DNA of 64,000 nt from Sphingomonas panacis (lineage in GTDB: Bacteria > Pseudomonadota > Alphaproteobacteria > Sphingomonadales > Sphingomonadaceae). The stretch's first letter is position 1. Each line of letters opens with the position of its first letter. Made by a program: the position numbers and the translations under genes. The stretch lies in NCBI RefSeq assembly GCF_001717955.1, contig NZ_CP014168.1, positions 186,001-250,000 on the forward strand. Reading direction: 5' to 3'. A model generated the notes under the pieces. It was not told the DNA's origin, ran no database searches, and saw only the letters and a program-made list of their open reading frames with translations. Shown here in pieces: positions 6,353-63,201 of the stretch.

Positions 6353-6625
6353 GGATATTTGCCCGCGCCGCGCGACCGTTCTGGCAATCTGCGGTGACGG
6401 TACACTGACGCGCGGGGCGGCGAAACGTGGCTAAGGTTGTCCATTCGAGTGACGGTGCGGGCGGTGTCACTTTTGGGCATGGCTGACGGCCGGGCACCCC
6501 GCGCGAGGGGTGGCCGTGACGGGTGGCGCTGACGGTTTCAAAGAGCGTTGGCGCGAGTTTGGCACAGGGGCTGCGTGTAGGACAGGCCCCCTGCCACAGT
6601 GCATCGATTTTGATACATAGCTCTT

Positions 6626-48560: not shown

Positions 48561-49064
48561 TTACGCGGCGATCAGCCCGTGTGTGTGCAGTGCAGCAAGA
48601 ATTGCGCTGATCGCCTCTCGCGCCTCGATGTCGGCCACGGTGCCGCCAGAGGGCTCGGCGATCGTCGATTGCTGCGCTGCAACAACCTGAACACCGTCGA
48701 TTTCGAGTCGCGATCCGCGCACGACGCCGACGCTCCAGCCACTCCCGTCGAACAGCGCCTCGCTCGCATCGGAGAGGTTCCAAACGCGCATGCCCGTTTT
48801 GGGTATGCAGAATCGCCAGCCGCCGTCGCTCCAGCCGGCGAGATGGCGGGCGTGCCCCGCCCACACGCCGGTCGGCGCCGCGCCGACGATCCAGCACTGT
48901 CCCGCGACCGGCGTCGCGGGCGGCGTGTCGATACCGATCGCCAACACCACCGGGTGCGCGAACAGATCGAGCAGAGTCAGCGCCTCGTTATGAGTCATCT
49001 CCTTCTGCGCCTGCCCGGCGCTCAACAGCGGCAGCGCCAGGCGTGCGGTCACATCGTCAGTCAT
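48561..49064 (-). CDS. DUF2793 protein, tail-associated
   Basis: This 167-residue protein begins LALPLLSAGQAQKEMTHNEA, the DUF2793 signature, and continues AGQCWIVGAAPTGVWAGHA and GWRFCIPKTGMRVW, then an Ala-rich helical C-terminus. The family occurs at the end of alphaproteobacterial gene-transfer-agent and phage tail operons and is thought to be a tail or fibre component. It follows the gp15-like gene by a single base and is the last gene of the cluster. Confidence 0.88.
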   Translation of the reverse strand: MTDDVTARLALPLLSAGQAQKEMTHNEALTLLDLFAHPVVLAIGIDTPPATPVAGQCWIVGAAPTGVWAGHARHLAGWSDGGWRFCIPKTGMRVWNLSDASEALFDGSGWSVGVVRGSRLEIDGVQVVAAQQSTIAEPSGGTVADIEAREAISAILAALHTHGLIAA

Positions 49065-49065
49065 G

Positions 49066-51228
49066 TCATGCCTCCCAGGCGGGGATGAAGAGGTTTGCGG
49101 CAGTCGATGCGCCGACCGAGCCGACCTGCCGGATCGAAACGGTCACGCCCGCGCCGCGCTCGGCGGCGCCGAGGTTGAGCATGGGCTCGCTGGTCTCGGC
49201 TGCCGGCGCGGTTCCGATCGTCACGCGGTAGAGTTCCCGCTCCTCGACGAGCGGCGAATCGACGCCGTCGATCCAGCGCCACCCGGCGCGGCTGCGGCGC
49301 GTCCAGCGGATCTCGGCGCCGCCGTCACCAAGCTCGCGCCAGCGCAGACCCACCGGCGCGAGCGGCAAGACCGAGCCGCCCGCGATCGTCGTCTGTGCCG
49401 CGGCTGGCCCCGCGACATCGCCGATGCCCGAGGCGAGCACGCGAACCTCGCCGCCGAGCGTCGCAAGCGGTACGTCGAGCGCCATCACGGCGTCGCGTTC
49501 GATCAGTACGACACGATCGCCCACCGCCTGAGTCCCGATCGCCGCCTCGGTGCCGCGTCGGCCACGATACAGGGTGGAGAGCCGCCAGCGAGTCGCGCCG
49601 ATCTGCTCGGCCACGCCGAACTGGAGCAACTCGTCACCGCACAAAGCGAGGTTCGCGCCCGCATCGAGCGCCGCAGCGTCCGCGCCCGACAGTGCCATGT
49701 TCGCATGGGCAAGCTCGACCTCGAACCGCGAGCGGCGATCGATCACCGTCGCCGGTACGGCGAGCGGCACCGACGCGAGCACGCCGAGCGTCGCGGGCGC
49801 AGCCGTCGCGCCCGCCGTGGACCAGCGCGCGCCGCCGTCGAGGCTGTACAGCAACGCGGCGCGCCGCCAGCCGGGCGCGGTGCCCGCCGCCGCGATCGTC
49901 ACGCGCGGCGCGCTCAGCACGCTGTCGTCAAGCGGGGGGATTTCGAAGACGTGGACGATCGTCGTGCCGGCGACCGCGTCGGGCGAGGACAGCACCCTGC
50001 CCCCGCTCGCTCGCACGGGCAGCGCGGCGGCGGCGAGCCGCACGCACTCGAGCGACAGCACCATGTGTTCGAGCGACCAGCCGGTCACCCGCCACGCGCC
50101 CGCCGCGCCATCAATCGCGACGCACGCTCCGGGTGCGATGCCGATCGCGTCCCAGCCGAGCGCGACCGTCCGCCGCACCCGCCCCGCCTCGGCACGCGCG
50201 AGCGTCGCCTCCGCCATCGTCTTGGCGCTGGCCGCGTCGAGCGCGGCGGGCATGTCGATCTGCTGGTCGCTATAGCCCGCGCCCGGCCGCCGCGCGCGCT
50301 GAACGCCGGTTTGATAATCGCGCGCCGGATCATAATGTTTGAGCGTCACCGTGCGCGGCACCGTCTCGATCGCGGCGGTCGATCCGACCGCGCGCGCGCC
50401 GCCGCCCGCGCCCGTCGCGACGCCGGCATCGGCGATGGTGCGCTCCGGATCGATCGAAACGCGCAGCGACAGCCCCGCCCCCTCCGGCGCGAATCGACCG
50501 CCAATCGCCGTGCCGAGCGTCTCGATCACCGCGCGCAGATTGCCATACGCGGCGAAGCCCGGCAGCGGCAGCGTCGCCGCCGCGCCGTCGATCAGCCCAC
50601 CGGAGAGGTCCGCCGCGATTGCGCCTGCGGCGACCGGCGCGGGATCGGCGATGACCTCGAAGGTCAGCGACGGGATGCGGTTGCCGTAGTCGGCAAGCTG
50701 AAGGCTCTCGAACACCGCATAGGCGATGCCGCGATGCGCCGGCACCAGCCCCGCGCCTTCCGCAGACGCGATCAGCGGATCGGCGTCCTGATCCTCGCCG
50801 CCGAGATGCAGGCGGAAGCCGGTCGAGACCTTGAAGTCACCCGCGCCCCCGCGCAGCAGATTGCCGTCCGCCCAGATCCGCCCGACGCTTCGGATCGGCC
50901 GCCCCGACAGCGCCACCGCGAACGACGCCGAATAGCTGTAATTGGTCACGCTCGGCTGGCCCTTGCCGCTGCTCGCGGTGCTGCGGCTTTCGATCAGGTC
51001 GGTTGACCAGATCACGCAGCCGGCGATCCGCATCGTGCCGAACACGCGCTGGATCGGCATGCCATAAGAGGAGGTCTGCACCGCCAGTTCGGTCAGCCGT
51101 GGCCCCTCGCGCCCCTTGGGCTTGAAGAGCACGTCGCGGTCGATCGTCTGGCCGAGCAGCGCGCCGATCGCGCCGCCGATGGGGCCGCCGATCACGCTGC
51201 CGATCGTCGTCAGCACCAAGGTCGCCAT
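49066..51228 (-). CDS. GTA gp15-like tail hub protein, short form
   Basis: This 720-residue protein has the characteristic Gly/Ile-rich start (IGGPIGGAIGALLGQTIDRD), then a hub-like region (VQTSSYGMPIQRVFGTMRIA, SGRPIRSVGRIWADG, LADYGNRIPSLTFEVI) and C-terminal beta domains. RcGTA gp15 is about 1300 residues with a TIM-barrel-like domain, which I do not see here, so this is a reduced form. The start overlaps the end of the NlpC/P60 region closely (ATG 51228, upstream stop 51230). It would form the tail tip that meets the recipient cell. Confidence 0.88.
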   Translation of the reverse strand: MATLVLTTIGSVIGGPIGGAIGALLGQTIDRDVLFKPKGREGPRLTELAVQTSSYGMPIQRVFGTMRIAGCVIWSTDLIESRSTASSGKGQPSVTNYSYSASFAVALSGRPIRSVGRIWADGNLLRGGAGDFKVSTGFRLHLGGEDQDADPLIASAEGAGLVPAHRGIAYAVFESLQLADYGNRIPSLTFEVIADPAPVAAGAIAADLSGGLIDGAAATLPLPGFAAYGNLRAVIETLGTAIGGRFAPEGAGLSLRVSIDPERTIADAGVATGAGGGARAVGSTAAIETVPRTVTLKHYDPARDYQTGVQRARRPGAGYSDQQIDMPAALDAASAKTMAEATLARAEAGRVRRTVALGWDAIGIAPGACVAIDGAAGAWRVTGWSLEHMVLSLECVRLAAAALPVRASGGRVLSSPDAVAGTTIVHVFEIPPLDDSVLSAPRVTIAAAGTAPGWRRAALLYSLDGGARWSTAGATAAPATLGVLASVPLAVPATVIDRRSRFEVELAHANMALSGADAAALDAGANLALCGDELLQFGVAEQIGATRWRLSTLYRGRRGTEAAIGTQAVGDRVVLIERDAVMALDVPLATLGGEVRVLASGIGDVAGPAAAQTTIAGGSVLPLAPVGLRWRELGDGGAEIRWTRRSRAGWRWIDGVDSPLVEERELYRVTIGTAPAAETSEPMLNLGAAERGAGVTVSIRQVGSVGASTAANLFIPAWEA

Positions 51229-51229
51229 A

Positions 51230-51622
51230 TCAGTCTCCTGTCAAACGCCACGCCGCGACCAGCGGCCACGGCGGCACGCCCGGTCGCTCGACCACGCGCC
51301 TGAGCATCGCGTCGGCATGGACGACCCCGCCCGGCACCCGCACGGCGAGGTGGAATTGCGCTGGCCCGGCCGCGAACAGCAGCAAGTCGCCGTCCATCGG
51401 CGCCGAGGTGCGGGCGAGCCCGGTCGCGTCGATCGCGGCGGACGGATCACCGCTTCGGATCGCATAATCCGCCGGAATCACCGTCGAGACTCCGGCGGCG
51501 CGCGCCGCCAGCGCCGCCAGCCCGACGCAATCGAGCCCGAACGCGGGATCGCGCCCGTGCAGGCGGAACCGCGCACCCACCGCGCCCCGCGCCGCCGCTA
51601 CGGCGCACTCGCCCGGCGTCAT
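51230..51622 (-). CDS. NlpC/P60-type peptidase, GTA gp14-like
   Basis: This 130-residue protein contains DPAFGLDCVGLAALAARAAG (Cys nucleophile in the DCVGL motif), DGDLLLFAAGPAQFHLAVRV with the catalytic His, and VVHADAMLRRVVERP. It is the small cell-wall peptidase of siphovirus-like tails, used to breach the recipient envelope, and corresponds to RcGTA gp14. Its start overlaps the DUF2163 stop in ATGA. The larger open frame to its left is a shadow of the DUF2163 gene. Confidence 0.9.
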   Translation of the reverse strand: MTPGECAVAAARGAVGARFRLHGRDPAFGLDCVGLAALAARAAGVSTVIPADYAIRSGDPSAAIDATGLARTSAPMDGDLLLFAAGPAQFHLAVRVPGGVVHADAMLRRVVERPGVPPWPLVAAWRLTGD

Positions 51623-52428
51623 GCGCCGGGATACCGGGTGAGCAAGTCGATGCCGGGGAGGTACGGCTCGCCGCGAAAGTTCAGGGCGTTGCCGAACCGC
51701 GCCGCACAGGTCGCGACGCTCTTGTCGCAACCCTCGACCAGTTCGATCAGATCGCCCGGCGTGGGCGTAAAGACGGGCTCGGCGCGCAGCATCACCACCG
51801 CGCCGTCCGATGCCGCGACCGCGCTCTCCAGCCCGCTGTTCGCCCCCCCGAACCAGCGGAGCAGCCCGCCACCATAAGCGTTGGCGTTTGGCTCGACCGC
51901 GTCCACCGTCACCGCCTGCCCGGCGACCGACACCATGCGCGCGAAGCGCCGCCGCCCCGCCATCGCGACGCGGCACCTCTTGTCGCCCAGCTCGGCGCGG
52001 CACTCCGCCGAGGTTTCCTCCGCCGCTGGCCGGTCGAGCGCCGCGCTCGCGCCGCGCAGCTCGGCGGTGAAGGCGCCGTCCCTGGTCTCGACCGATCCGA
52101 TCGTGCCTTCGCCGAGATCGACTCGCGCGTCGCCGCCGGCCCAGTCGACCGCGAACAGCCGCACGCGCGCGCCGTCCCACCGCCCCGCGCCGAGATCGCG
52201 CGCGCTGATCGCCGTGCCGGTCAGCGCACCCGACACGTCCATCGTATCGACGTCGAGGCCGTCGCTGCGCTTGATCGCCGAGGGTGTCATGCCCGGCGCG
52301 GCGCGGTGGATCAGGCCGTCGATCACCAGATCGCGGTCGTGCGAGGTCAGCCCGATCGCGATGCCGTCGCGCCGCTCCAGCCGCCAGCACAGAGCGACCG
52401 TCGACAGTGGTCCATCGAGGAAGCTCAT
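51619..52428 (-). CDS. DUF2163 tail protein, GTA gp13-like
   Basis: This 269-residue protein has the DUF2163/DUF2163_C pattern: ALCWRLERRDGIAIGLTSHD, RDLVIDGLIHRAAPGMTPSA, CRAELGDKRCRVAMAGRR and EGCDKSVATCAARFGNALNF followed by the RGEPYLPG end. It corresponds to RcGTA gp13, part of the tail hub. The paired cysteines in the C-terminal part (KSVATC, CRAEL, KRC) probably bind a metal as in that protein. It overlaps the preceding gene by four bases. Confidence 0.9.
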   Translation of the reverse strand: MSFLDGPLSTVALCWRLERRDGIAIGLTSHDRDLVIDGLIHRAAPGMTPSAIKRSDGLDVDTMDVSGALTGTAISARDLGAGRWDGARVRLFAVDWAGGDARVDLGEGTIGSVETRDGAFTAELRGASAALDRPAAEETSAECRAELGDKRCRVAMAGRRRFARMVSVAGQAVTVDAVEPNANAYGGGLLRWFGGANSGLESAVAASDGAVVMLRAEPVFTPTPGDLIELVEGCDKSVATCAARFGNALNFRGEPYLPGIDLLTRYPGA

Positions 52429-54719
52429 GCCACATCCTCGCGCACTTCGAGCAGCGGCACCGACGCCGCCGATCCCGCCAGAAAGGTCGCGCGCGCCACG
52501 CTGAGGCTGTCCTCGGCGAAGCGGACCGGCACGTCGAAGCGAAACCCAGCCGTCACCACCGCACCCGCCGCCGGCGCGGTATCGAAGTCTATCATCCCGC
52601 CCGCCGCCAGCGAGAATGCGGCGCTCGCCACGCCGTCGACCGCGACCATCACGCTACCACCGACCGGCCGCGTGATCCGCCGCACCACCGCGCCATAGTG
52701 TTTGACCAGCGCGAAACGGGTGGCGATGCCGTCGCCGATACCGATCTGCTGATCGAGCACTGTCGGCACCACGCCGCCCGATGACGCATCGAACGGATCG
52801 CGCAACCGGAACGCGCGAGCCGGCCCCATCCGCGCGCGGAAGAACGCGAGCAGAGTCGCGATATCGGCTTCGGAGCGCACCCCCGGCCCGACATCGTAGC
52901 GCGTTCGCGCCTCCGCCCAACTCGCGTTGCGCGCCTCGTGCCCGCCCGCGCTCGTCACGATCGCGGTGGAATATTCGGGTGCCACCTCCGCCTCGCGGCC
53001 GAGCGCGAGCGGGAACAGCACATCGTCGAACGCCTGCATCTCGTCCGCCTCCTCTTCGAAATGCACGAAACCATCGCGGATCACCTGCGGCAGCGCCCAG
53101 ACGAACCCGCGCCGCACGCCGCGCGCCCGCGCGCGCTGCGCCGCCGCCTCGATCTCGCGCCAGCCGGCGGCGTCTTCGCGCCGCAGCACGAAGCCGGCGA
53201 GATAATCGGTCTCACCGGTCGCATAGCCGAGCCGCCCTTGCGCTTCGGCGAGGGCGTGCTCGCTCAAGGTGCTGTTGCCCGCGGTGACGTAGTCATAATC
53301 CTCAAGCTGAAGCACATCGAACGCGGGCCGCGCCCAGCCGAGCGGCAGATTGGCACGCCGCAGTTCGGGGGCATCCGCCGCCAGCACGGTCGGCAGATAC
53401 GCGAGCAGATGCGCCTCGCACGCCGGCGCGACCGCCTTCACCGCCGCGACCAGCGCCGCCGTCGAGGCCGCCAGCACCGCGCCCGCCGCATCGAGCAGCG
53501 CCGTCGCCCCCGCCGACAGCGGCCCGCGCACGCTGGCGATCTCGATCGGATCGCCCAGCACCGCCCGCGCGGCCGCGTCGTACAGGCATGGCCGGCCATC
53601 GGGCATCACCCACCACCACGGCTCGCCGACCTGGAACTTCGGCGCCAGCCCCGCCGCCACCGCGATGCCGATCACCTCGGCGGCGACCGCGTGCAGATAG
53701 GCCATCGCGCCGCCATGCGCCGGCGATAGCAAGGTAGAGGGCGGCACCCAGCCGGTCAGCGCGGGCGACCCATCCCATGCGCCCTGCTTCCAGTCCGCCG
53801 GGCAATGCGCGTCGAACAGTTCGTAGCTGAGCGACCAGATCACATCATAGCCGAGCACCGCCGCGCGCTCGGCGAAGTCGCGCTGCCACGCCCGCGCCGC
53901 GACATTGAGCGCGCCCCCCGCCAGCGTCACGAGGCGCTCGGCGACGGTGAGCCGGAAATAATGGCTCATCCCGACATAGTGGACGATCGCGCCGCGATAG
54001 CCGAGGTGAAGCGCATTACGCAGGAGCCGCGCCGGCGTCAGATTGTAGCTGTCGTCATAGCCGCTGGCGATCTCGAGCGCGTGCGCGGGCACCACCGCGT
54101 CGCCGATCGCCAGCACCGCGCCCGGCCCCGAACAGGCGATGCCGCTCAGCTCGACCCAACCCTCGGCGGGCTCGGCGAGTGGCGCGTCGCTCGTGTCATA
54201 ATCCGGCGGGACCAGCGACACGAACATCCGGTCGATATCCCCCGCCCACACCGGCACCGCTTCGTCCGGCAGCAGGAACCCGCCCGCGACGCTCGCGAAG
54301 TCGATCGCGACCTGTGCGTCCTCGGGCGTGCCGGTCGCATAGTTCCACAGCCGCACGTACCAGGTTCGCGCCGCCCCGCCCGCGTCGCGCCCCTCGATCG
54401 TCAGCACCGGCCCGTCGATCGCATCGAGCGGCCGCACCCCCGCCGATCGCCAGCGGAACGCGAGCCGGCAGCCGCGAAAGTCGCGCGCCGTTTCATAGGC
54501 GAGCAACGGATGATCGAAGCGATCCTCCGCCGCCCAGATCAGCCCGGCGAGATCGTTCCTGCGGTAGAACACCGCATCCACGCGCAGCGCATCGGGCGCG
54601 ATCGTGGTGACGGCGGCCATCATCGGCCGCGGGAAATCCACCGTCCAGAAACGCGGATCGAACCGCGAGATCACACCCTCGGCCTGATGAGTCCGCGCCG
54701 CCGCCAACCAATATGCCAT
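52425..54719 (-). CDS. DUF2460 (GTA gp12-like) distal tail protein with large N-terminal extension
   Basis: The last 200 or so residues match DUF2460/gp12: SEADIATLLAFFRARMGPAR, FRLRDPFDASSG, VLDQQIGIGDGIATRFALVK and FRFDVPVRFAEDSLSV. A DUF2460 protein is normally about 210 residues, but this one has 764. The N-terminal 550 residues (FYRRNDLAGLIWAAEDRFDH, RGAIVHYVGMSHYFRL, KFQVGEPWWWVMPDGRPCLY) look enzyme-like, perhaps a TIM barrel or tail sheath-like fold. The fusion is in one clean frame with no sign of error. It may stand in for the TIM-barrel domain that gp15 lacks. Confidence 0.82.
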   Translation of the reverse strand: MAYWLAAARTHQAEGVISRFDPRFWTVDFPRPMMAAVTTIAPDALRVDAVFYRRNDLAGLIWAAEDRFDHPLLAYETARDFRGCRLAFRWRSAGVRPLDAIDGPVLTIEGRDAGGAARTWYVRLWNYATGTPEDAQVAIDFASVAGGFLLPDEAVPVWAGDIDRMFVSLVPPDYDTSDAPLAEPAEGWVELSGIACSGPGAVLAIGDAVVPAHALEIASGYDDSYNLTPARLLRNALHLGYRGAIVHYVGMSHYFRLTVAERLVTLAGGALNVAARAWQRDFAERAAVLGYDVIWSLSYELFDAHCPADWKQGAWDGSPALTGWVPPSTLLSPAHGGAMAYLHAVAAEVIGIAVAAGLAPKFQVGEPWWWVMPDGRPCLYDAAARAVLGDPIEIASVRGPLSAGATALLDAAGAVLAASTAALVAAVKAVAPACEAHLLAYLPTVLAADAPELRRANLPLGWARPAFDVLQLEDYDYVTAGNSTLSEHALAEAQGRLGYATGETDYLAGFVLRREDAAGWREIEAAAQRARARGVRRGFVWALPQVIRDGFVHFEEEADEMQAFDDVLFPLALGREAEVAPEYSTAIVTSAGGHEARNASWAEARTRYDVGPGVRSEADIATLLAFFRARMGPARAFRLRDPFDASSGGVVPTVLDQQIGIGDGIATRFALVKHYGAVVRRITRPVGGSVMVAVDGVASAAFSLAAGGMIDFDTAPAAGAVVTAGFRFDVPVRFAEDSLSVARATFLAGSAASVPLLEVREDVA

Positions 54720-54726
54720 AGCTCTT

Positions 54727-55296
54727 TCACTCCACCGCCAGCGCCGCCTTCACCGCGCGCGCGACCTGCCGGCCCGACGCGCTCAGCGCCGCACCGCTTT
54801 CGCCACGCGCGGCGTTGATCGTGATCACGACCCGCACGTCGCGCCCGCCACCCCCGCCGGCGGCGACGATGCTCCCGCTCGATGTCGGCACGAACAGCTC
54901 CGGCCCGCGCTCGCCGACCACATAGGCGCGCGCCGGCGACACTGGCCCGCCGGTCGCCCGCCCCGGCGATCCGCCCAGCAACCCGGCCAGCGTCGTCAGC
55001 AGACCGCCGCCGCCCGAACTCGCGCCGCCGCTGCCGAGGATCGAATCGATCCCGCTGCGGATCGCCGCGCTCGCGATGTCGGCGAGCACCGACAGCGCGA
55101 CCTTGCGCAGATCCTCGAACCCCAGCGACCCGGTTCGCGCCGCCTTGACCAGCACATTCTCGATCTCGCGCCCGGCGCGATCCGCCCCCGTGACCAGCGG
55201 GCCGTCGAGACTGGCGCGCATCGTATCCACGTCGCGCGCGAAGCCGGCGGTGTCGGCGCGCACGCTCACCACCAGCCGGTCGATTTCCTCATCCAT
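54727..55296 (-). CDS. short tail tape measure protein, GTA gp11-like
   Basis: This 189-residue protein begins MDEEIDRLVVSVRADTAGFA, then helical FEDLRKVALSVLADIASAAI. A Gly-rich segment GGSPGRATGGPVSPARAYVV and the phage-type GERGPELFVPTSSGSIV end motif follow. This is the tape measure signature in RcGTA-like clusters, where the short length sets a tail of about 50 nm. It overlaps the chaperone gene by eight bases. The sequence is too short for a typical siphophage tail, supporting a GTA. Confidence 0.88.
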   Translation of the reverse strand: MDEEIDRLVVSVRADTAGFARDVDTMRASLDGPLVTGADRAGREIENVLVKAARTGSLGFEDLRKVALSVLADIASAAIRSGIDSILGSGGASSGGGGLLTTLAGLLGGSPGRATGGPVSPARAYVVGERGPELFVPTSSGSIVAAGGGGGRDVRVVITINAARGESGAALSASGRQVARAVKAALAVE

Positions 55297-55489
55297 CGGG
55301 AAACGCCTCCATCAATGTCGCGATCGTCTCGGGGGTCGGCGGCGTCGCGCCGGCCTCGCCGCCGATCGCCGCCACCAGCGCCGCCAGTTCGGCGGGTGTC
55401 GCAGCCCAGAAGTGCGCAGGGCGCCAGCCGAACGCGACGCCGGCCAGCCCCGCCAGCCGCACCGCCGCATCGGCGAAGCGCGCACTCAT
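55289..55489 (-). CDS. tail assembly chaperone, GTA gp10.1-like
   Basis: This 66-residue protein (SARFADAAVRLAGLAGVAFG, then WRPAHFWAATPAELAALVAA) fits the small TIGR02216/DUF2376 tail protein found between the gp10-like gene and the tape measure in alphaproteobacterial clusters. It overlaps its upstream neighbour in ATGA and its downstream one by eight bases. The longer frame in which it sits is a shadow of gp9/gp10. Confidence 0.8.
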   Translation of the reverse strand: MSARFADAAVRLAGLAGVAFGWRPAHFWAATPAELAALVAAIGGEAGATPPTPETIATLMEAFPDG

Positions 55490-55800
55490 CGCCCGCCAAG
55501 GATCTGCGCGAGCAGCACGCGCAACACCGGTGTCGCCTGCGCCAGACCCGCCGCCGCGACCGCCTCGCCGAACAGCTCGCGCGTCAGCGCGGCCGGGGCT
55601 TCGTGCAAACAGTGCCAGAACAGCGCGACCAGCTCGCGCAGGGAGAGTTGCCCCGCCGCCGCGCGCTCGACCAATGCGAACAGCGGCCCCAACTCCTCCT
55701 CCGCCGCGACCAGCGCCGCGAAGCTCGGCCGCAGCACGATCTGTTCGCCCGCCACGCGGATCGCCGCCTCGCCGCGCGCGGGGTTCGCCACCGCGCTCAT
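55486..55800 (-). CDS. GTA-gp10 family tail chaperone
   Basis: This 104-residue protein (AAIRVAGEQIVLRPSFAALV, AAEEELGPLFALVERAAAGQ, LRELVALFWHCLHEAPAA) matches the GTA-gp10 family (DUF3356), the first tail chaperone in RcGTA-like clusters. It is helical and acidic. It overlaps the tail tube gene by four bases, so translation is coupled. In siphoviruses the two chaperone frames are linked by ribosomal frameshifting, whereas here they are separate overlapping genes. Confidence 0.87.
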   Translation of the reverse strand: MSAVANPARGEAAIRVAGEQIVLRPSFAALVAAEEELGPLFALVERAAAGQLSLRELVALFWHCLHEAPAALTRELFGEAVAAAGLAQATPVLRVLLAQILGGR

Positions 55801-56204
55801 GCCGCCACCACCGCGCCCGAGCTTTCCAGCGCGATCGTGTAGCTGCGCTCGCCATTGTAATCCCCGGCATAGTCGAGCCGCGTCACAAGGAAGCGTCCGC
55901 TCAGCGTCTCGCCACTCTCGAAGCTCAGCCGATAGTCATCGATCACGCCGGCGAGCGCATTGCCCTTGAGCCGCACCTCCGCCGCCGATCCGGTGAACAC
56001 CCCCGCCCCCGAGACGCTGACCGAGCGCACCCCAGCGCCCGACAGCAATTCGCGCCACCCGCCCGAATCCTTCGAGGTGATCGCCACCATCTCGCCGTTG
56101 ATCGAAAGCTGCGTCGTGCGCAGCCCCGCCACCGTCGCATAAGCAACCGGCGATCCGCCGTTGCCGATTTTCAGCAGGAATGCCCTGCCACTCTCCGCGC
56201 CCAT
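55797..56204 (-). CDS. major tail tube protein, GTA gp9-like
   Basis: This 135-residue protein begins GAESGRAFLLKIGNGGSPVA and continues YATVAGLRTTQLSINGEMVA, ITSKDSGGWRELLSGAGVRS and VSVSGAGVFTGSAAEVRLKG. This is the TP901-1 type major tail protein fold of phage and GTA tails. It polymerises into the tail tube. A 30-base gap separates it from the DUF3168 gene upstream. The predominance of beta strands with Gly turns fits the family. Confidence 0.92.
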   Translation of the reverse strand: MGAESGRAFLLKIGNGGSPVAYATVAGLRTTQLSINGEMVAITSKDSGGWRELLSGAGVRSVSVSGAGVFTGSAAEVRLKGNALAGVIDDYRLSFESGETLSGRFLVTRLDYAGDYNGERSYTIALESSGAVVAA

Positions 56205-56234
56205 ATCATGCTCCTGTCTGTTGAAATCGCCGCC

Positions 56235-56618
56235 TCACGCGGCGAGCATCCGCACCCGATATTCGATCACCGCGCTCCACCGCCCCGGCGCCGGCCGCAG
56301 CAGCCGCGTCCGCACGAACACGAGGCTCGCGATCCGCCACCCGTCGAGATCGCGCGGCAGCGCCTCGATCGCCGCACTCGCCGCGCCGGCAAGCGCCTGT
56401 ACCCGCGCCGGCGTCTCGGCCGCGTCGCGGATCGTCACCGCCAGCCGCAGCTCGCGCCCGTCGCGATCCTTGACGCTCCAGTCGCCGCTCAGCGTCTCGC
56501 CGATCTCGGCGAAAGGCGGGGTCGCCTTGACCGGCGGCCCCTCGAACACGCCGTTCAGCCCGGGGATTGCTTTGAGCACCGCGAGCAACGCCGCCTGCAC
56601 CACGCCGTCCGCGCTCAT
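56235..56618 (-). CDS. DUF3168 tail terminator, GTA gp8-like
   Basis: This 127-residue protein (VVQAALLAVLKAIPGLNGVF, KATPPFAEIGETLSGDWSVK, DRDGRELRLAVTIRDAAETP, RLLRPAPGRWSAVIEYRVRM) is a DUF3168 protein, the tail terminator or completion factor of RcGTA-like particles. It overlaps the small upstream gene by four bases. The length and conserved GRELRL-type strands are typical. Confidence 0.9.
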   Translation of the reverse strand: MSADGVVQAALLAVLKAIPGLNGVFEGPPVKATPPFAEIGETLSGDWSVKDRDGRELRLAVTIRDAAETPARVQALAGAASAAIEALPRDLDGWRIASLVFVRTRLLRPAPGRWSAVIEYRVRMLAA

Positions 56619-56812
56619 CGCAGCAGACTCCCGATCCAGCGCAGCCGCGCATCCTCGCGCGAGACCCGCCCGACCAGCACGATCGCGTCGTCCTCGCCGC
56701 TGACGGTCAGTTCGGGAAACGCCGCCTGCAACCGCGCCGCGCCTTCGGTGATCGCGCGCGCCTGCGCTGCGGCGCCGATCGTGCGGCCTCGCCCTGCCAG
56801 CCCGCTCAACAT
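56615..56812 (-). CDS. small protein in the gp7 position
   Basis: This 65-residue protein (AAAQARAITEGAARLQAAFP, ELTVSGEDDAIVLVGRVSRE, DARLRWIGSLLR) occupies the place where RcGTA has gp7, a head-closure protein of about 110 residues, but shows no clear similarity to it. It overlaps the gene on each side (ATGA-type spacing), so it is probably translated. It could be a reduced head-closure protein, an unrelated replacement, or an assembly factor. Confidence 0.6.
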   Translation of the reverse strand: MLSGLAGRGRTIGAAAQARAITEGAARLQAAFPELTVSGEDDAIVLVGRVSREDARLRWIGSLLR

Positions 56813-57369
56813 GCGCGTGTCCGCCGCGTCAGCGCGATGCGGCGGAACGGCCGCCACAGCGCCGTCACCGCCACCGGCGGCGCCGCCGCCGCATCGCGCA
56901 CGGTGAACAGATGCGCCGCGAGCAGCACGACACCCTGCCGGATCGGCGCGGGCAGCGCCTCCCAGCCGGTCGCCAGCCCGGCGGTGAAGGTCACGCCCAC
57001 CCGCATCGCGCCGCCCGAATCGATCACCCGCACCCAGCCGTCGCCGGCGGGATCGATGTCGATCACATAGGCCTCGCTCGCCAGCGCCGTGCCGCCGATC
57101 GCCTCGACCGCACCGATCGCCCGAACCGGCGTTGCCGCCAGTTGCTGCCACGCGCGGCTCGCCGGCAGCACGTCGCGCAAGCTCCGCGCGATCAGCACCT
57201 GCCCGATAAACGCTTCGCCCAGCCCCAGCGCGGTCTCGGCCAGTGCCACCACCAGCGCATCCTCGTCATCGTTGACCAGCCGCAGCATCGCCTTCACCTC
57301 GGCCAGCGCCGCCGCGCGATCCTCCCCGCCGAGCACCACCGCGCCCGGCCCCTCGCTCCCGATCGTCAT
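56806..57369 (-). CDS. head-tail connector, GTA gp6-like
   Basis: This 187-residue protein (AAALAEVKAMLRLVNDDEDA, LGEAFIGQVLIARSLRDVLP, EALPAPIRQGVVLLAAHLFT) has the adaptor pattern of phage gp6/phiE125 gp8-like connectors, the N-terminal VKAMLRL helix and C-terminal helix. It links the portal ring to the tail. ATG 57369 is preferred because a GGTGGAG site lies six bases upstream, whereas the earlier ATG abuts that site. It lies 103 bases after the capsid gene, past a hairpin. Confidence 0.88.
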   Translation of the reverse strand: MTIGSEGPGAVVLGGEDRAAALAEVKAMLRLVNDDEDALVVALAETALGLGEAFIGQVLIARSLRDVLPASRAWQQLAATPVRAIGAVEAIGGTALASEAYVIDIDPAGDGWVRVIDSGGAMRVGVTFTAGLATGWEALPAPIRQGVVLLAAHLFTVRDAAAAPPVAVTALWRPFRRIALTRRTRAC

Positions 57370-57445
57370 GAACATCTCCACCTTAAAGCGGGCGCAGCCG
57401 TCGGACGGCACCGCGATGCGGTGCCGCCGCCCGGCCGCGCCGAGT

Positions 57446-57471
57446 CCGGGATTTGCTTGCGCAAACCCCGG
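57446..57471 (-). terminator. hairpin after the major capsid gene
   Basis: CCGGGATTTGC (57446-57456) and GCAAACCCCGG (57461-57471) form an 11-bp stem with one mismatch and a TTGC loop, one base after the capsid stop codon. In phages such stems after capsid genes cause partial termination or protect the abundant capsid mRNA. Confidence 0.6.
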
Positions 57472-57472
57472 C

Positions 57473-58528
57473 TCAGCTTGCGGCGAACTTCATCAGCTTG
57501 ATCGCCTCGGAATTGCTCACGCAGCCACCGATCCGCTTGGTCGCGTAGAAGGTGACGAACGGCTTGTTCGAATAGGGATCGCGCAGGATCGCGGTTTCGC
57601 TCCGCTCCGCGATCAGATAGCCGGCGCGGAAATCGCCGAACGCGATCGCCAGCGCGTTGGCGGCGATGTCGGGCATGTCCTCGGCCTCGATCACCGGATA
57701 GCCGAGCAACGTCGCCGGCTGCCCCGCCGCCAACCCGGGTGCCCAGAGGAACGCGCCGTCGGTGGTCTTGAACTTGCGGATCCGCGCCAGCGTCGCCGAG
57801 TTCATCACCCAGTTCGCATTCTGGCGATACGGCCCGCGCAGGCTCTGGACGAGGTCGATCAGCCGGTCCTGCGGGTTGGCGGCGAAATCGCCGGCCGCGC
57901 CGCTCGCCAGATATTGCAGCGTGCCGAACGCGCGCGCCGCGTCGTTGGCGGCCGCGACCGGTGCCTGCAGGAATCCCTTGGGCCGAGCAACGCCCGATCC
58001 GGTGACGAACGCCGCCCCTTCGGCGCGCGCGAACTCGGTGGCCACCTCCCCGGCGAGCCACCCTTCGACATCGAACAGCGCATCGTCGAGCATCGCCTGG
58101 CTCGCGCTCGGGTTGGCGTACAATTCCCCCATCGGCGGGGCGATCTCGGCATAGGTCGGCGTGGGCGTCCCCGGCCGCGCATCGGTCTCCGCTGCCCAGC
58201 CCGAGGGCGTGCCGCCGCTCGTCACCAGCTTGCGATACCCCGCCGAGCCGACCTTGACGACATTGGCGATCGCCCGGATCGGCGAGATCGAGGTGAGCGT
58301 CGCGTCGATCACCGCATCGATCTCCTTGGGGATCGCATAGCCGCCGCTGTCGCCGGTCACGCCGGTGAACGATTTCATCTCGACGCTGCTGCCGCTGCGC
58401 AGGAACCCCGAGAACGCCGCCGCGCGACCACCGTCGCGCGCGCCGCTCAGCAACGGCCGCACCACCGCGCCGCCCATCTCCACGCCCGAGAAGCTCGTCT
58501 CAAGCGAATCCGCTTTCACTTCGATCAT
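57473..58528 (-). CDS. HK97-type major capsid protein, GTA gp5-like
   Basis: This 351-residue capsid protein has the HK97 fold segments: MKSFTGVTGDSGGYAIPKEI, FARAEGAAFVTGSGVARPKG, WVMNSATLARIRKFKTTDG and the C-terminal FGDFRAGYLIAERSETAILR, then KPFVTFYATKRIGG. The N-terminal 50 residues are the likely scaffold (delta) part removed by the protease. It is somewhat shorter than RcGTA gp5 (about 398). A hairpin directly follows its stop codon. Confidence 0.95.
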   Translation of the reverse strand: MIEVKADSLETSFSGVEMGGAVVRPLLSGARDGGRAAAFSGFLRSGSSVEMKSFTGVTGDSGGYAIPKEIDAVIDATLTSISPIRAIANVVKVGSAGYRKLVTSGGTPSGWAAETDARPGTPTPTYAEIAPPMGELYANPSASQAMLDDALFDVEGWLAGEVATEFARAEGAAFVTGSGVARPKGFLQAPVAAANDAARAFGTLQYLASGAAGDFAANPQDRLIDLVQSLRGPYRQNANWVMNSATLARIRKFKTTDGAFLWAPGLAAGQPATLLGYPVIEAEDMPDIAANALAIAFGDFRAGYLIAERSETAILRDPYSNKPFVTFYATKRIGGCVSNSEAIKLMKFAAS

Positions 58529-58602
58529 GTCATTCTCCCATGCGAAAACACCCCCGCGCAGGCACCGCCGGCGGGCAAAAACCTCGAAAATCTCGAAAGC
58601 CG

Positions 58603-59070
58603 TCAGGCTATCGCATGCACCCGTGCGAGCGGCTGCATCGGCTGCGCGACCAGGCTCACCTCGACCAGATCGACCGCGGTCAGTTCGCGATACCGCCCCC
58701 GCGCCGCCGCTTTCACCCGGTAGCCGAACGACAACCCGGAAACCGCGCCCGACCGCACCAGCCCGGCGAGCCGCGCATCGTCGATCCGCCCGATCACGCG
58801 CAGCCCCCGCATATCCTCGCCCGCCTGCTCGATCACGCCGACCGGCGCGCCATTATGCTGCCACAGCAACGGCACCGGCCCGACCGGCCCGAACGCGCCC
58901 GCGCGCACCACGTCGCCACCGCGATCGGCGCGGTCGAACACGGCGGCATAGCCAGCGAAGCGCAGCCCGGCCGCCCCATCCGTTCCCCCGCGAAAGCGGG
59001 GGTCCAGAGCCACCGACGCGGCGCTGCCTGGCTCTGGACTCCCGCTTGCGCGGGAGAACGGCGCGGTCAC
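58603..59070 (-). CDS. HK97-type prohead protease, GTA gp4-like
   Basis: This protein of about 155 residues carries the protease core: LRFAGYAAVFDRADRGGDVV, GPVPLLWQHNGAPVGVIEQA with the catalytic His, and SGAVSGLSFGYRVKAAARGR with the Ser, then VDLVEVSLVAQPMQP. The start is GTG 59070, in GTGA overlap with the DUF6127 stop. The first 30 or so residues (SRASGSPEPGSAASVALDP and onward) are entirely encoded by a palindromic repeat, so they are not native protease sequence. No other start codon suits the core. Confidence 0.87.
   Translation of the reverse strand: MTAPFSRASGSPEPGSAASVALDPRFRGGTDGAAGLRFAGYAAVFDRADRGGDVVRAGAFGPVGPVPLLWQHNGAPVGVIEQAGEDMRGLRVIGRIDDARLAGLVRSGAVSGLSFGYRVKAAARGRYRELTAVDLVEVSLVAQPMQPLARVHAIA
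58983..59058. repeat. palindromic repeat inside the prohead protease gene
   Basis: Two 30-base arms, 58983-59012 and 59029-59058, are complementary except at a few positions, enclosing 16 bases. Translation on the minus strand gives a SRASGSPEPG and DPRFRGG pattern typical of dispersed bacterial palindromes of this kind. It reads through in frame. Confidence 0.85.
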
Positions 59071-59375
59071 TTCACCCAATCCCAGAACCCGAACCGCGCC
59101 GCGAGGCCGGCGAGCAACACCGCGCCGCCGATCCGTGCCACCCAGCCGATCACCGCTTTCCACGCCGAGCGCTTGGCGTCGCGCCACGCGCCGAGCAATT
59201 CGCGCAACTCGGCCATGTCCTTGGCCGCGCCCGAATCATCCAGCCCGAGCCGCATCAGCGCCCGGCTCGCGCCAAGCTCGCCGGCTTCTTCCGCGATCGC
59301 ACGCAAGGTCGCCAGATCGGCACCCTCGGCCTGCCCCTGCGCCATCAACTGCGCCAGCACCGCACTCACACTCAT
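59067..59375 (-). CDS. DUF6127 family protein
   Basis: This 102-residue protein begins MSVSAVLAQLMAQGQAEGAD, then LRAIAEEAGELGASRALMRL and LGAWRDAKRSAWKAVIGWVA with a C-terminal hydrophobic helix. It matches DUF6127 of sphingomonad GTA clusters, inserted between portal and protease as gp3.5 or equivalent. Its start overlaps the portal stop in ATGA and its stop overlaps the protease GTG in GTGA. It may be a small membrane-associated assembly factor; function unknown. Confidence 0.8.
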   Translation of the reverse strand: MSVSAVLAQLMAQGQAEGADLATLRAIAEEAGELGASRALMRLGLDDSGAAKDMAELRELLGAWRDAKRSAWKAVIGWVARIGGAVLLAGLAARFGFWDWVK

Positions 59376-60505
59376 GCCACACCTCCCGCGTGATCCGCGT
59401 TCAAGCCCAACATCGCCCGCTTTTCCGCGTCGCTGAGGAACCCGGCCGCATTCACCTGCGCCCACAGCCGCTCGCGATCCTCGGCGAGTGCCGTGACCTT
59501 ATCGACGTCGACGCGCAGCCACGGCGCCTCGAACCAGCCGGCCAGCCCCTGCGCGAGTCCGGCGAAGATCGTGTCGGCCAGCGGCAGGATCGCCAGCCGC
59601 CACAGAGCGCGGCTCGCCTCGCGGTAATTCGCATAGGTCGCGTCACCCGGCAGCCCGAGCAGCATCGGCGGCACCCCGAAGCCGCATGCGATCTCGCGCG
59701 CCGCCGCCGCCTTCAGCCCGACGAAATCCATGTCGGCCGGGGTCATGCTGAGCGCCTGCCATTTGAGGCCGCCCTCCAGCAGCATCGGCCGCCCGGCATT
59801 GCCCGCGCCGGCGAACCCAGCTTCCATTTCGGTACGGAGCCGCTCGAACTGTTCGCGCGACAGCACCGATCCGTCGCCCGGATCATGCACCAGCGCGCCC
59901 GACGGCCGGGCGGCATTGTCGAGCAGCGCCTTGTTCCAGCGTGCCGCCGCATTGTGCAGCGCGATCGCGCCCGCCGCCGCGCCCAGACACCCCAGCCCAT
60001 AATGGTCGTCGAGCGGATGGAAGCTGCGCAGATGCACCAGCTCGGGCCGCGCGCCGTCCGCAATCAGCCGCGTCACCCGCTCGCCGACGCGGTAGCGATA
60101 CGCGACCGGCCAGCCGCCCGCATCCGCCTCCACGCTCACCCGCTCGGGCCTGAGCGCGAACAGCTCGACGACCTGCCCCGCCGGGTCGGTCATGATCTGG
60201 ACATAGGCGTTGCCGTGCAGCAGCAGGTGCGCCGCGACCGTCTCGGTCAGCGCCTGCCCGCCCGAACGCGCGCTCACCAGCGCGAGCAGATCGGACGAAG
60301 ACGCCGTCACCGGCGCGCCCGCCAGCCCCTGCGCGACCAGCCGCACCGCGCGCTGCGCGACGGCGTTGCGGCAATAGCCCTGCCGCACCTGCGCCGCATA
60401 ATCATCGGCCCATTCGCCCGACGATCTCCCCGCCGACCACAGGCCATAGCGCGCCAGCACCGGACGCACGTCGCGCCCGGCTGATTTCCAGCCGAAGAGT
60501 TTCAT
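59372..60505 (-). CDS. phage portal protein, GTA gp3-like
   Basis: This 377-residue protein has the HK97 portal pattern: YAAQVRQGYCRNAVAQRAVR, VTASSSDLLALVSARSGGQA, LLLHGNAYVQIMTDPAGQVV, LFALRPERVSVEADAGGWPV, VHLRSFHPLDDHYGLGCLGA and PMLLEGGLKWQALSMTPADM. It forms the dodecameric ring through which DNA is packaged. It lies 88 bases after the methyltransferase-like gene, and that gap contains a perfect 7-bp hairpin, so it may be transcribed separately from that gene. Confidence 0.93.
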   Translation of the reverse strand: MKLFGWKSAGRDVRPVLARYGLWSAGRSSGEWADDYAAQVRQGYCRNAVAQRAVRLVAQGLAGAPVTASSSDLLALVSARSGGQALTETVAAHLLLHGNAYVQIMTDPAGQVVELFALRPERVSVEADAGGWPVAYRYRVGERVTRLIADGARPELVHLRSFHPLDDHYGLGCLGAAAGAIALHNAAARWNKALLDNAARPSGALVHDPGDGSVLSREQFERLRTEMEAGFAGAGNAGRPMLLEGGLKWQALSMTPADMDFVGLKAAAAREIACGFGVPPMLLGLPGDATYANYREASRALWRLAILPLADTIFAGLAQGLAGWFEAPWLRVDVDKVTALAEDRERLWAQVNAAGFLSDAEKRAMLGLNADHAGGVA

Positions 60506-60525
60506 GTGATGTCCTTGTTCAAGCC

Positions 60526-60544
60526 GGCGCGAAACTGTCGCGCC
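60526..60544. terminator. hairpin between methyltransferase-like and portal genes
   Basis: GGCGCGA (60526-60532) and TCGCGCC (60538-60544) form a perfect 7-bp stem with loop AACTG. It lies in the 88-base gap between the methyltransferase-like stop and the portal start and may separate the two transcripts. Confidence 0.4.
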
Positions 60545-60593
60545 CGCGCCAACCGCACATGCTTTGGCCCCCGTTATGGGAGCAGATCGAAGA

Positions 60594-61265
60594 TCAGCCC
60601 GGCTTCTTGCCGAACCAGATCACGTGCCGCGCGCCCTTGCCGCTGGCACGCGCGCGGATCGTCACCTCGTCCACCGCGAACCCGGCCTCGCCGAGCCGCC
60701 GGGCGAATTTCACGTCGGGCGCGGCCGACCAGATCGCCAGCACCCCGCCGGGCCGAAGCGCGCCCCGCGCCGCCTCCAGCCCGCGCGCCGAGTACAGCCG
60801 GTCGTTGCCGCGCCGCGTGAGACCATCGGGACCGTTATCGACATCGAGCAGGATCGCGTCATACGCGCCCCGCCCGCCGGCGATCACCGCGCCGACATCC
60901 TCGGTGAGGATCTCCACACGGCGGTCGTCGAGGCTGTCGCCGGTCAGCGCCGCCATCGGCCCGCGCGCCCAGTCGATCACCTGCGGCACCAGTTCCGCCA
61001 CAGACACGCTCGCCTGCGGCCCGAGCCGCGCCAGCGCCGCGCGCAACGTGAAGCCCATGCCATAGCCGCCGATCAGGAAATGCGGCGCCGCGCCCGTCAC
61101 CCGATCGCACGCCAGCGTCGCCAGCGCCTCCTCGGAACCGCTCATCCGGCTGCTCATCAATTCCTCGACACCGAGCATGATGAAGAAGTCGGTGCCACGC
61201 TGCACCAGCCGCATTTCGCCGCCGCCCGGCACCTGTGCGCTATCGATCAATATTCTCGGAACCAT
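60594..61265 (-). CDS. spermidine-synthase-like methyltransferase-fold protein
   Basis: This 223-residue protein has the spermidine synthase/Rossmann methyltransferase pattern: FFIMLGVEELMSSRMSGSEE, PHFLIGGYGMGFTLRAALAR with the nucleotide loop, VSVAELVPQVIDWARGPMAA, VEILTEDVGAVIAGGRGAYD, AILLDVDNGPDGLTRR and LRPGGVLAIWSAAPDVKFAR. It is short for SpeE. It sits between terminase and portal, where RcGTA has nothing, with hairpins on each side. It may be a cargo gene or a GTA accessory; the substrate is unknown. Confidence 0.8.
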   Translation of the reverse strand: MVPRILIDSAQVPGGGEMRLVQRGTDFFIMLGVEELMSSRMSGSEEALATLACDRVTGAAPHFLIGGYGMGFTLRAALARLGPQASVSVAELVPQVIDWARGPMAALTGDSLDDRRVEILTEDVGAVIAGGRGAYDAILLDVDNGPDGLTRRGNDRLYSARGLEAARGALRPGGVLAIWSAAPDVKFARRLGEAGFAVDEVTIRARASGKGARHVIWFGKKPG

Positions 61266-61302
61266 CCGTCCTCCTAGCGCCCTAAAAGCCAATCGCCCAG
61301 CC

Positions 61303-61330
61303 CGTCGCCCCGGCCTCCGCCGGGGCGACG
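61303..61330. terminator. hairpin abutting the large terminase stop codon
   Basis: CGTCGCCCCGGC (61303-61314) and GCCGGGGCGACG (61319-61330) form a perfect 12-bp stem with loop CTCC, adjacent to the terminase stop at 61331. It shares its arm ends with the CGTCGCCCC repeats after putA and serC and may end the terminase transcript. Confidence 0.6.
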
Positions 61331-62653
61331 CTAGAGTCCCCGCACCGCAGCCATCCCCACCCGTCCCGGCAGCAGCACCGCCAGCGCCCACACCAGGGCA
61401 TCCGCCCGGTCGGGCGAGCGGCCCGGCCCCTGATAGCGCCCGCCCGCGACCAGACCGCACATCTCGTCCTCCAGCCCCGGAAACGCGCCGACATGATGCA
61501 CCCGCCCCCGCCCATATTCGACCGACACCGGCTCCGCGCGCGCCGCCTTGCCGCGCGTCGCGCTGACGGTGGCAATCGGCAGGCCGGGATCGACTCGTTC
61601 GAGCACCGATCGCACCATCTGCCCGCCCTGATTGACCTCGGCCACCACGCGGTCGGCGGCGTGCCGCCCGGCGCACGCCACCACCGCGCGCGCCCATCCC
61701 TCGGGGCTTTCCCCGACGACGCTGGCATCCTCGATCACATACGCATGACCATCCTCGCCCAGCCCCGCCGCGACGATGCCGCACGCGTCGCCCTCGCCGC
61801 TCGCGCTTCCCGCCGGCGGATCGACCCCCACCACCACGCGCACCAGCGCCGGCGCACGCGCCACCCGGCACGCCTCGATGCCGCCGCGAGTCCACAACGC
61901 CCCCGGCAGATCCTCGATCAGCTCGCCGTCGATCTCCTGCCGGCCGAGCCGCGTGCCGCCATAGCCTTGCTCGATCGCGGCGATGAAGCCCTCGCCGAGA
62001 TGGTGGTTGTCGTGAGTCCGCCCGCGCGACTCTTCGAGTCCCTTGATCGCCATGATCCGCCGCAGCAGCGGCACCGCGCGCGGCGTCGTCGTCACCATCA
62101 CCTGCTGTTCCGCGCCGAGCCGCAGCCCGAGCATCAGATTGTCCCATGCCGCGTCCGCGCGCCGCCATTTGGCGATTTCGTCGCACCAGGCGGCGTGATG
62201 CTGCGGCCCGCGCAGTTTTTCGGGCGCCTCGGCCGAATAGGTGAAGGCGCGCGCGCCCGACATGAACACCAGTTCGCCCGAACTGCGATGCCAGTCGATC
62301 CGCTCGCCCGGCATCGCCACCGACAATATGCCACTGTCACCCTCCACCATCACCCGTGTCACATCCTCGATCGTCGCGCCGACCAGAGCGATCCGCGCAC
62401 CCGGCAGATCGCGCGCGATCTGGCTGACCCATTCCGCCCCCGCGCGCGTCTTGCCGAAACCGCGCCCGGCACGGACCAGCCACACCCGCCAATCGCCTTC
62501 CGGGCGATACTGCCCTTGGTGCGCGCACAACGCCCACGTCCGCACCAGCGTACGTTTGACGGGAGCGTCGAGACTTTCGATCATCTTCACCTGTTTGTCC
62601 GGCGGCAACGACGCGAGCATCGCCAACACTTCGACCATTCTTGTTTCGGTCAT
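61331..62653 (-). CDS. large terminase, GTA gp2-like
   Basis: This 440-residue packaging ATPase-nuclease has Walker A RGFGKTRAG (in WLVRAGRGFGKTRAGAEWV), SGARAFTYSAEAPEKLRGPQ, HHAAWCDEIAKWRRADAAWD, then VMVTTTPRAVPLLRRIMAIK. The nuclease domain carries VVVGVDPPAGSASGEGDACG and KAARAEPVSVEYGRGRVHHV. It cuts and pumps DNA into the procapsid. In GTAs this enzyme packages random genomic DNA. Its start overlaps the preceding stop in ATGA. Confidence 0.94.
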   Translation of the reverse strand: MTETRMVEVLAMLASLPPDKQVKMIESLDAPVKRTLVRTWALCAHQGQYRPEGDWRVWLVRAGRGFGKTRAGAEWVSQIARDLPGARIALVGATIEDVTRVMVEGDSGILSVAMPGERIDWHRSSGELVFMSGARAFTYSAEAPEKLRGPQHHAAWCDEIAKWRRADAAWDNLMLGLRLGAEQQVMVTTTPRAVPLLRRIMAIKGLEESRGRTHDNHHLGEGFIAAIEQGYGGTRLGRQEIDGELIEDLPGALWTRGGIEACRVARAPALVRVVVGVDPPAGSASGEGDACGIVAAGLGEDGHAYVIEDASVVGESPEGWARAVVACAGRHAADRVVAEVNQGGQMVRSVLERVDPGLPIATVSATRGKAARAEPVSVEYGRGRVHHVGAFPGLEDEMCGLVAGGRYQGPGRSPDRADALVWALAVLLPGRVGMAAVRGL

Positions 62654-63069
62654 GCCTTCGCCGGCAGCCGTTTGCCGAGCGCCGCGAGCTTGCCCAACAG
62701 CGCCTGTTCGACCTCCGCCATCGAAGCCATGCGCGGCATCGCCTCGCGCGGCGCGTTCGGTCGGGCCCGCCGGGTCTCATGACGCGCAAGCATCTTGAGC
62801 GCCAAAGCCTGGTCGAACGTCCCGACCTCGCGCGCGTTCACGTCGATCGCGCGTGCCAGCAACTCGTCCTCAAGCCGCGCATACGCCGAGTCCAGCGCCT
62901 CTTCCCACCCGTCCGCGAAGGCCGGATCATGCCGACGCAACGCATAGGCCGAAGCGGGAGTCCGCCCCGCCGCCTCGGCCGATCGCGCCACATCGCCGCT
63001 CAGCGCGAGCGTATCGAGAAAGATCGTCCGTGCCGCTGCCGTCCAGCCGGCGCTCGCCATATCGGTCAT
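62650..63069 (-). CDS. GTA gp1-like putative small terminase
   Basis: This 139-residue protein (AAARTIFLDTLALSGDVARS, AEAAGRTPASAYALRRHDPA, FADGWEEALDSAYARLEDEL) has the helix-turn-helix-like ALSGDVxxSAxxAGxTPASAYxLR pattern followed by an acidic helix, seen in small terminases and RcGTA gp1. A GGAGG site lies six bases before ATG 63069. It is the first gene of the cluster and lies beside an AT-rich gap (63142-63201) that could hold the cluster promoter. Confidence 0.85.
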   Translation of the reverse strand: MTDMASAGWTAAARTIFLDTLALSGDVARSAEAAGRTPASAYALRRHDPAFADGWEEALDSAYARLEDELLARAIDVNAREVGTFDQALALKMLARHETRRARPNAPREAMPRMASMAEVEQALLGKLAALGKRLPAKA

Positions 63070-63141: not shown

Positions 63142-63201
63142 GCTGTAGGACAGAAGTTTTTAACCGATATGGTACAATTCGTCAGAGACTCTCGACACGC
63201 G
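63142..63201 (-). promoter_or_regulatory. AT-rich gap upstream of the GTA cluster
   Basis: This stretch is clearly less GC-rich than its surroundings (it includes GAAGTTTTTAACC and ATGGTACAATTCG). It lies upstream of the first GTA-type gene and downstream of the small membrane protein gene on the same strand. A promoter for the cluster is plausible, but I see no exact consensus boxes. Confidence 0.3.

Follow-up and report, generated by a model that had tools for sequence, protein, structure and literature searches.

Gene transfer agents (GTAs) of the RcGTA type are usually accompanied by the activator GafA, whose homologs are assigned to the family DUF6456 (PMC9765227, PMC9638019). The gafA gene was reported in 196 of 208 GTA genomes (PMC9765227), and RcGTA production was described to require the GafA homolog rcc01865 (PMC6363796). 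In Caulobacter, a repressor is described to hold down gafYZ, while GafYZ switch on the cluster (PMC9632790, PMC11150451), and with a stronger -35 the GTA promoter was reported to become independent of GafYZ (PMC11150451). It is still an open question in the field what keeps GTA production rare and why these agents have persisted, and GafA is regarded as the obligatory switch.

In the Sphingomonas genome under study (G000), a window, which means here the whole analysed stretch of 64,000 nucleotides, carried 19 genes in RcGTA order on the minus strand, from the start of g1 (63069) to the end of the DUF2793 gene (48561): g1, g2, a SpeE-like insert, g3, g3.5, g4-g10, g10.1, g11-g15 and DUF2793 (Table 1). 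By gene content and by the order of its head-tail genes this is a cluster of the RcGTA type, a kind already known in Sphingomonadales, and the new aspect is regulatory, namely a changed leader together with the loss of gafA. Profile matches were obtained from terminase to DUF2793, including an Rcc01695-family distal tail protein and part of GTA_megatron, while the Pfam scan matched no family for g1 and g7; a short replacement of g7 has been described for Sphingomonadales (PMC9765227). The original prediction had the location, strand and order of this run right and counted 17 genes, two fewer than found here. Its ATGA or GTGA overlaps could be seen from the coordinates at many gene junctions, and its tape measure of 189 residues corresponded to g11.

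Table 1. Features of the GTA cluster and of the g1 leader (positions in the window)
Feature	Position	Strand	Basis
g1, small terminase position	62650..63069	-	position and homologs; Pfam match none
g2, large terminase	61331..62653	-	Terminase_6N and 6C
SpeE-like gene between g2 and g3, 223 aa	60594..61265	-	Spermine_synth E 1.6e-4, just below cut-off; location in relatives
g3, portal	59372..60505	-	Phage_portal
g3.5	59067..59375	-	DUF6127
g4, prohead protease	58603..59070	-	Peptidase_S78
g5, major capsid protein	57473..58528	-	Phage_capsid
g6, head-tail connector position	56806..57375	-	Phage_connect_1 below cut-off; homologs
g7 position, ~65 aa protein	56615..56812	-	position; short replacement known from PMC9765227
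g8, tail completion	56235..56618	-	Tail_completion_gp17
g9, tail tube	55797..56204	-	Phage_tail_2
g10	55486..55800	-	GTA-gp10 family
g10.1, tail assembly chaperone	55289..55489	-	Phage_TAC_6; TIGR02216 below cut-off
g11, short tape measure, 189 aa	54727..55296	-	position; Tape_meas_lam_C below cut-off
g12, N4-type tail sheath and TIM barrel domains fused to distal tail protein	52425..54719	-	
g13, baseplate hub (GTA hub)	51619..52428	-	TIGR02218
g14, peptidase position	51230..51622	-	NLPC_P60 E 0.014, below cut-off
g15, short megatron, 720 aa	49066..51228	-	GTA_megatron in two stretches; Rcc01698_C
DUF2793 tail protein	48561..49064	-	DUF2793 profile
OmpA porin, conserved downstream neighbour	47297..48424	-	profile; synteny in relatives
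Inverted repeat TACC-N5-GGTT in g1 leader, likely operator	63162..63174	-	also before gafA in relatives and before common leader block
TGTCCTACA, gafA-type promoter element of g1	63144..63152	-	common to G146, G147, G239

Of 267 genus genomes that were at least 90% complete, G000 among them, 236 had a terminase match and 31 had none, which amounts to only mild patchiness, the distribution that had been named as a point against the original prediction; in a relatives set it was present in 54 of 61 genomes. The gene set recurred in 20 same-genus stretches, with deletions in G011, G016 and G034, and for G146, G157, G239 and G263 the order of the genes was read out directly. In 16 of the 20 stretches the cluster was followed by OmpA, and the remaining four stretches or contigs end before this gene. 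The tree of 14 GTA proteins and the RpoB tree both grouped G000 with G022 and G031. Vertical inheritance with the host chromosome is indicated by this synteny and by the RpoB agreement for G000; elsewhere the two trees disagree strongly in one place, G027 being grouped with G010 by the GTA proteins (support 98) and with G002 by RpoB (support 100). The fused g12 and the short g11 were widespread across the genus, so together with the trees they did not bear out the distinct branch that had been proposed. The closest named relatives by terminase were Sphingomonas sp. NFR15 (91%), S. populi 3-7 (89%) and Sphingomonas sp. BAUL-RG-20F-R05-02 (78%). An SPFH/Pal/Tol neighbourhood upstream of the cluster is common to G146 and G147 (L227, L229), and in G146 about 3.7 kb extra lies between it and g1. 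Decaying clusters were found in relatives, e.g. G011, G016, G025, G026, G030 and G034. The capsid match of G022 stops at residue 227 of 351 (L037), and its capsid gene is possibly broken.

Besides G000, the first set comprised 36 genus genomes, 34 of them with a DUF6456 match; in the larger set the match was present in 232 of the 267 and missing in 35. Above cut-off, the profile matched a single control genome out of 14, a Caulobacter. In G000, neither this profile nor a relative's GafA gave any match at E 0.01 or better, and the dedicated activator, which is usual for RcGTA-type GTAs and not strictly defining, was not found. That the gene had merely been missed was considered and rejected: the best hit of a loose DUF6456 search (E 0.027) was a protein reading as an ECF-type sigma factor, and a relative's GafA as query reached E 0.0285 at best. 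Terminase-positive genomes without DUF6456 numbered 22 of 236, partly named by elimination, 20 of them with strong terminase matches.

In relatives, gafA adjoins a divergent helix-turn-helix gene. This helix-turn-helix (XRE) gene is intact in G000 (C1:1244190-1244765), lying beside a DUF2339 gene likewise found in G027, and only HTH was detected by Pfam in its protein. The 182 bases between the two genes contain an inverted repeat and CTGTCCTACAGCA, and a reading frame, MRDLTDRAIAATGA, is located 60 bases from the start of TGTCCTACA and ends within the slot, which thus retains a gafA-type promoter and a 14-codon start. GafA of three intact relatives begins MR-x-LVE near the corresponding place. 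In G000, gafA was thus deleted except for its first codons.

The g1 leader was surveyed in 67 genomes including G000, with G081, G220 and G232 outside the survey. A block like CTTGACATCGTCACGCTGTTTTGGTACATAACAGGAACG was located before g1 or g2 in 47 of them, usually preceded by an AACC-N-GGT repeat, which was not found before the block in e.g. G001, G005, G014, G036, G130, G135 and G270. With a 54-base consensus, 46 genomes scored at least 36 and the others at most 30, G019 (40) being set aside; G027 (28) was classed with the common block only via a strict pattern, which itself misses G145 and G109, both of which have the block. All 47 block genomes gave a DUF6456 match, versus none in 15 of the 20 others (counts that ignore shared ancestry); among the former, the match of G011 holds a stop and that of G026 is partial. 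The CTTGACATCGTCACGCTGTTTTGGTACATAACAGGAACG-type block can be read as a GafA-dependent promoter.

In G000, G146, G147 and G239 the block score was at background (25-28 of 54), and the repeat followed by TGTCCTACAGC was found in these four genomes only within the survey. This element was kept in the four species despite otherwise divergent flanks, and its TACC-N5-GGTT repeat is a likely operator. G146 and G147 have DUF6456 by profile match, while G239 has none (by elimination). The pattern GGTTN{2,8}TGTCCTACA gave 20 matches in 41 genomes, versus 21 for the reversed control; the bare pattern is not enriched, so the argument rests on location and repeat. The AACC repeat accompanied 10 of the 20 matches. 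Of these ten, eight immediately precede gafA, and the other two are in G000, in the empty slot and at C1:1573095. A second TGTCCTACA at window 6576-6584 has no AACC repeat, thus the 9-mer alone is not specific. Further arrangements were observed: G019 kept gafA and had, besides a decayed block (40 of 54), a gafA-like element located farther upstream; G003 and G219 had neither leader type and kept gafA; 13 genomes of the gafA-less group also had neither type (L237-L249), and seven aligned genomes of this group shared a third leader, AACCCATCTGGTT-like with TTGTTGGATACAAA and GGTACATAACGGGAACATC. In literature searches of limited scope no paper on such a GTA leader change was found.

These observations could be explained by a domesticated, vertically inherited RcGTA-type GTA in which gafA was no longer needed once the promoter had changed, and whose cluster is perhaps still expressed, a reading in which we place about even confidence. 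A more specific form of it, which we put forward tentatively and a little short of even confidence, would be that the operon gained the promoter type of the activator gene, and that the activator was then lost in G000 and, by elimination, in G239, with the particle genes fully selected, giving an activator-free GTA. The leader change would have placed the structural operon under signals formerly controlling gafA, with the XRE repressor, whose gene adjoins the empty slot, as the probable controller through putative binding. The gafA gene could then have become dispensable and been lost later; this order of events is suggested by G146 and G147, in which the new leader and DUF6456 occur together. 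Upon derepression, the cells would produce small particles with short tails, loaded with host DNA fragments, like those of RcGTA and CcGTA. The Caulobacter -35 result, as reported (PMC11150451), implies that one step can free the promoter from its activator. Against a promoter swap, GafZ of Caulobacter is described also as an antiterminator, a role that a new promoter would not replace, and the fact that several relatives are losing their clusters counts against continued expression.

The main rival, to which we give a lesser but substantial probability, is a recently silenced GTA, in which the deletion of gafA stopped production and the genes are still undecayed. It would agree with the described essential role of rcc01865 (PMC6363796) and with how common losses are in the genus (31 of 267 genomes without terminase, 35 of 267 without DUF6456), as well as with decay in relatives. 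Selection was examined by dN/dS (Nei-Gojobori) over g1-g15. Against G146, the closest relative, dN was 0.066, dS 0.356 and dN/dS 0.184. For G147, on a contig that stops after g11, dN/dS was 0.166. With G239 as outgroup, nonsynonymous and synonymous changes were 226/371 on the G000 branch versus 244/399 on the G146 branch (p=1), and with G110 as outgroup they were 221/401 versus 225/381 (p=0.59); for G000 versus G147 they were 100/184 and 77/142 (p=1). Relaxed selection on the G000 branch was not seen in these comparisons with G146 and G147, and the cluster genes were full length compared with relatives, which both speak against silencing. Judged from these sequence comparisons, purifying selection acts on an intact cluster, although the loss of gafA may be too recent for relaxation to show. 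The keeping of the leader element in four species across divergent flanks, and the full gene set of G239, a second genome without DUF6456 (by elimination), also count against a silenced cluster.

Action of another activator, or of a GafA too divergent for detection, at the new leader would be improbable. Other solutions do seem to exist, as 15 of the 236 terminase-positive genomes share a like terminase match and have no DUF6456, and the 13 of them whose leaders were read have their own conserved leader; in addition, G049 and G059, from another family of the order (L064, L066), have the full gene set and no DUF6456 match. On the other side stand the searches of G000 described above, which gave nothing at E 0.01, and the orthologous gafA slot, which is empty.

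Integrase was sought in 19 flanking proteins, a subset of the flanking ORFs, and was absent among eight upstream proteins (SPFH, Pal, TolA, TolR, NMO, UPF0047, aspartate kinase-like and methyltransferase) and among 10 downstream ORFs, five of them without a Pfam family at 1e-4, and OmpA; within this scope, which extends beyond the window, no integrase adjoins the structural genes as would be expected for an active prophage. In phage records, all 155 terminase matches and all 538 capsid matches were less than 60% identical, while g12 had one short unannotated 'Bacteriophage sp.' record at 65.9% identity. A prophage or prophage remnant instead of a GTA is very improbable: although phage homologs exist for most structural genes, the cluster is at one site genus-wide, the GTA tree is RpoB-like, integrase is missing among the scanned neighbours and the best phage terminase is only 49% identical. 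The best matches to terminase (49%) and g12 (66%), MW091529.1 and MT840053.1, are both short 'Bacteriophage sp.' records, and may be GTA fragments of host DNA. Two other portal genes, at C1:4.21 Mb and C1:1.38 Mb, were considered as marks of a second GTA, and this was rejected; these loci look like ordinary prophages by eye. The original prediction of a system other than a decayed prophage was upheld, as was the absence of integrase among the proteins scanned. Its description as maintained and probably functional held for the first part, by the dN/dS comparison it had called for, while the second part is weakened by the loss of gafA and the decaying clusters in relatives.

The combination of N4-type sheath and TIM barrel domains in g12 with a short megatron g15 recurs throughout the genus and partly in the wider order. 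The RcGTA megatron barrel was absent among the matches listed for g12, and a literature search on the N4-type sheath with TIM barrel found no paper. The SpeE-like gene was considered as a part of the GTA design and rejected: its matches, present in 40 of 61 genomes, are mostly elsewhere on the chromosome. Of the first 37 genus genomes, about seven carry it within the cluster, and G026 and G030 have retained it despite the decay of their clusters. The third gafA-type element (C1:1573095; L191:5793-8104) precedes sp1 and sp2, both of unassigned family. Sp1 is 179 aa with a signal-peptide-like start, and sp2 is 570 aa with a weak GDSL lipase match; neither gave a confident solved-structure match, a PHROG or a Pfam family above cut-off, and the flanks of sp1 relatives in nine genomes held no gafA-type element.

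A lineage with a selected, intact cluster, a changed leader and no gafA, accompanied by relatives at an earlier stage, would be a natural test of whether the switch can go while the particle stays. If the cluster is silent, these strains would instead document GTA loss at an early and datable stage.

With the RcGTA of Rhodobacter capsulatus the locus shares the order g1-g15 and the families of Rcc01695-type Dit, GTA hub and megatron; the distal tail protein matched PDB 6tba_6B at 4.4e-39 and g15 matched 6tba_8A at 3.9e-43. It differs in that g15 has 720 aa versus 1304 in RcGTA, with the middle missing, that g12 has extra N4-like domains, and that a SpeE-like insert is present and gafA is not. 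The distal tail protein part of g12, which is of siphophage type, is joined to domains like Gp64 of phage N4 and its non-contractile tail sheath. With CcGTA of Caulobacter crescentus (RogA and GafYZ), relatives have in common that a gene of the helix-turn-helix repressor type adjoins the activator gene, whereas here the activator is deleted and the repeat is AACC-N-GGTT in place of GGAA-N4-TTCC. RcGTA-like clusters of Sphingomonadales were reportedly treated by Kogay et al. in 2019 and 2022, and are said to include the 'ancient prophage' of Viswanathan et al. 2017. The gene set and the short g7 replacement are shared with these clusters, while the loss of gafA and the changed leader set the present locus apart.
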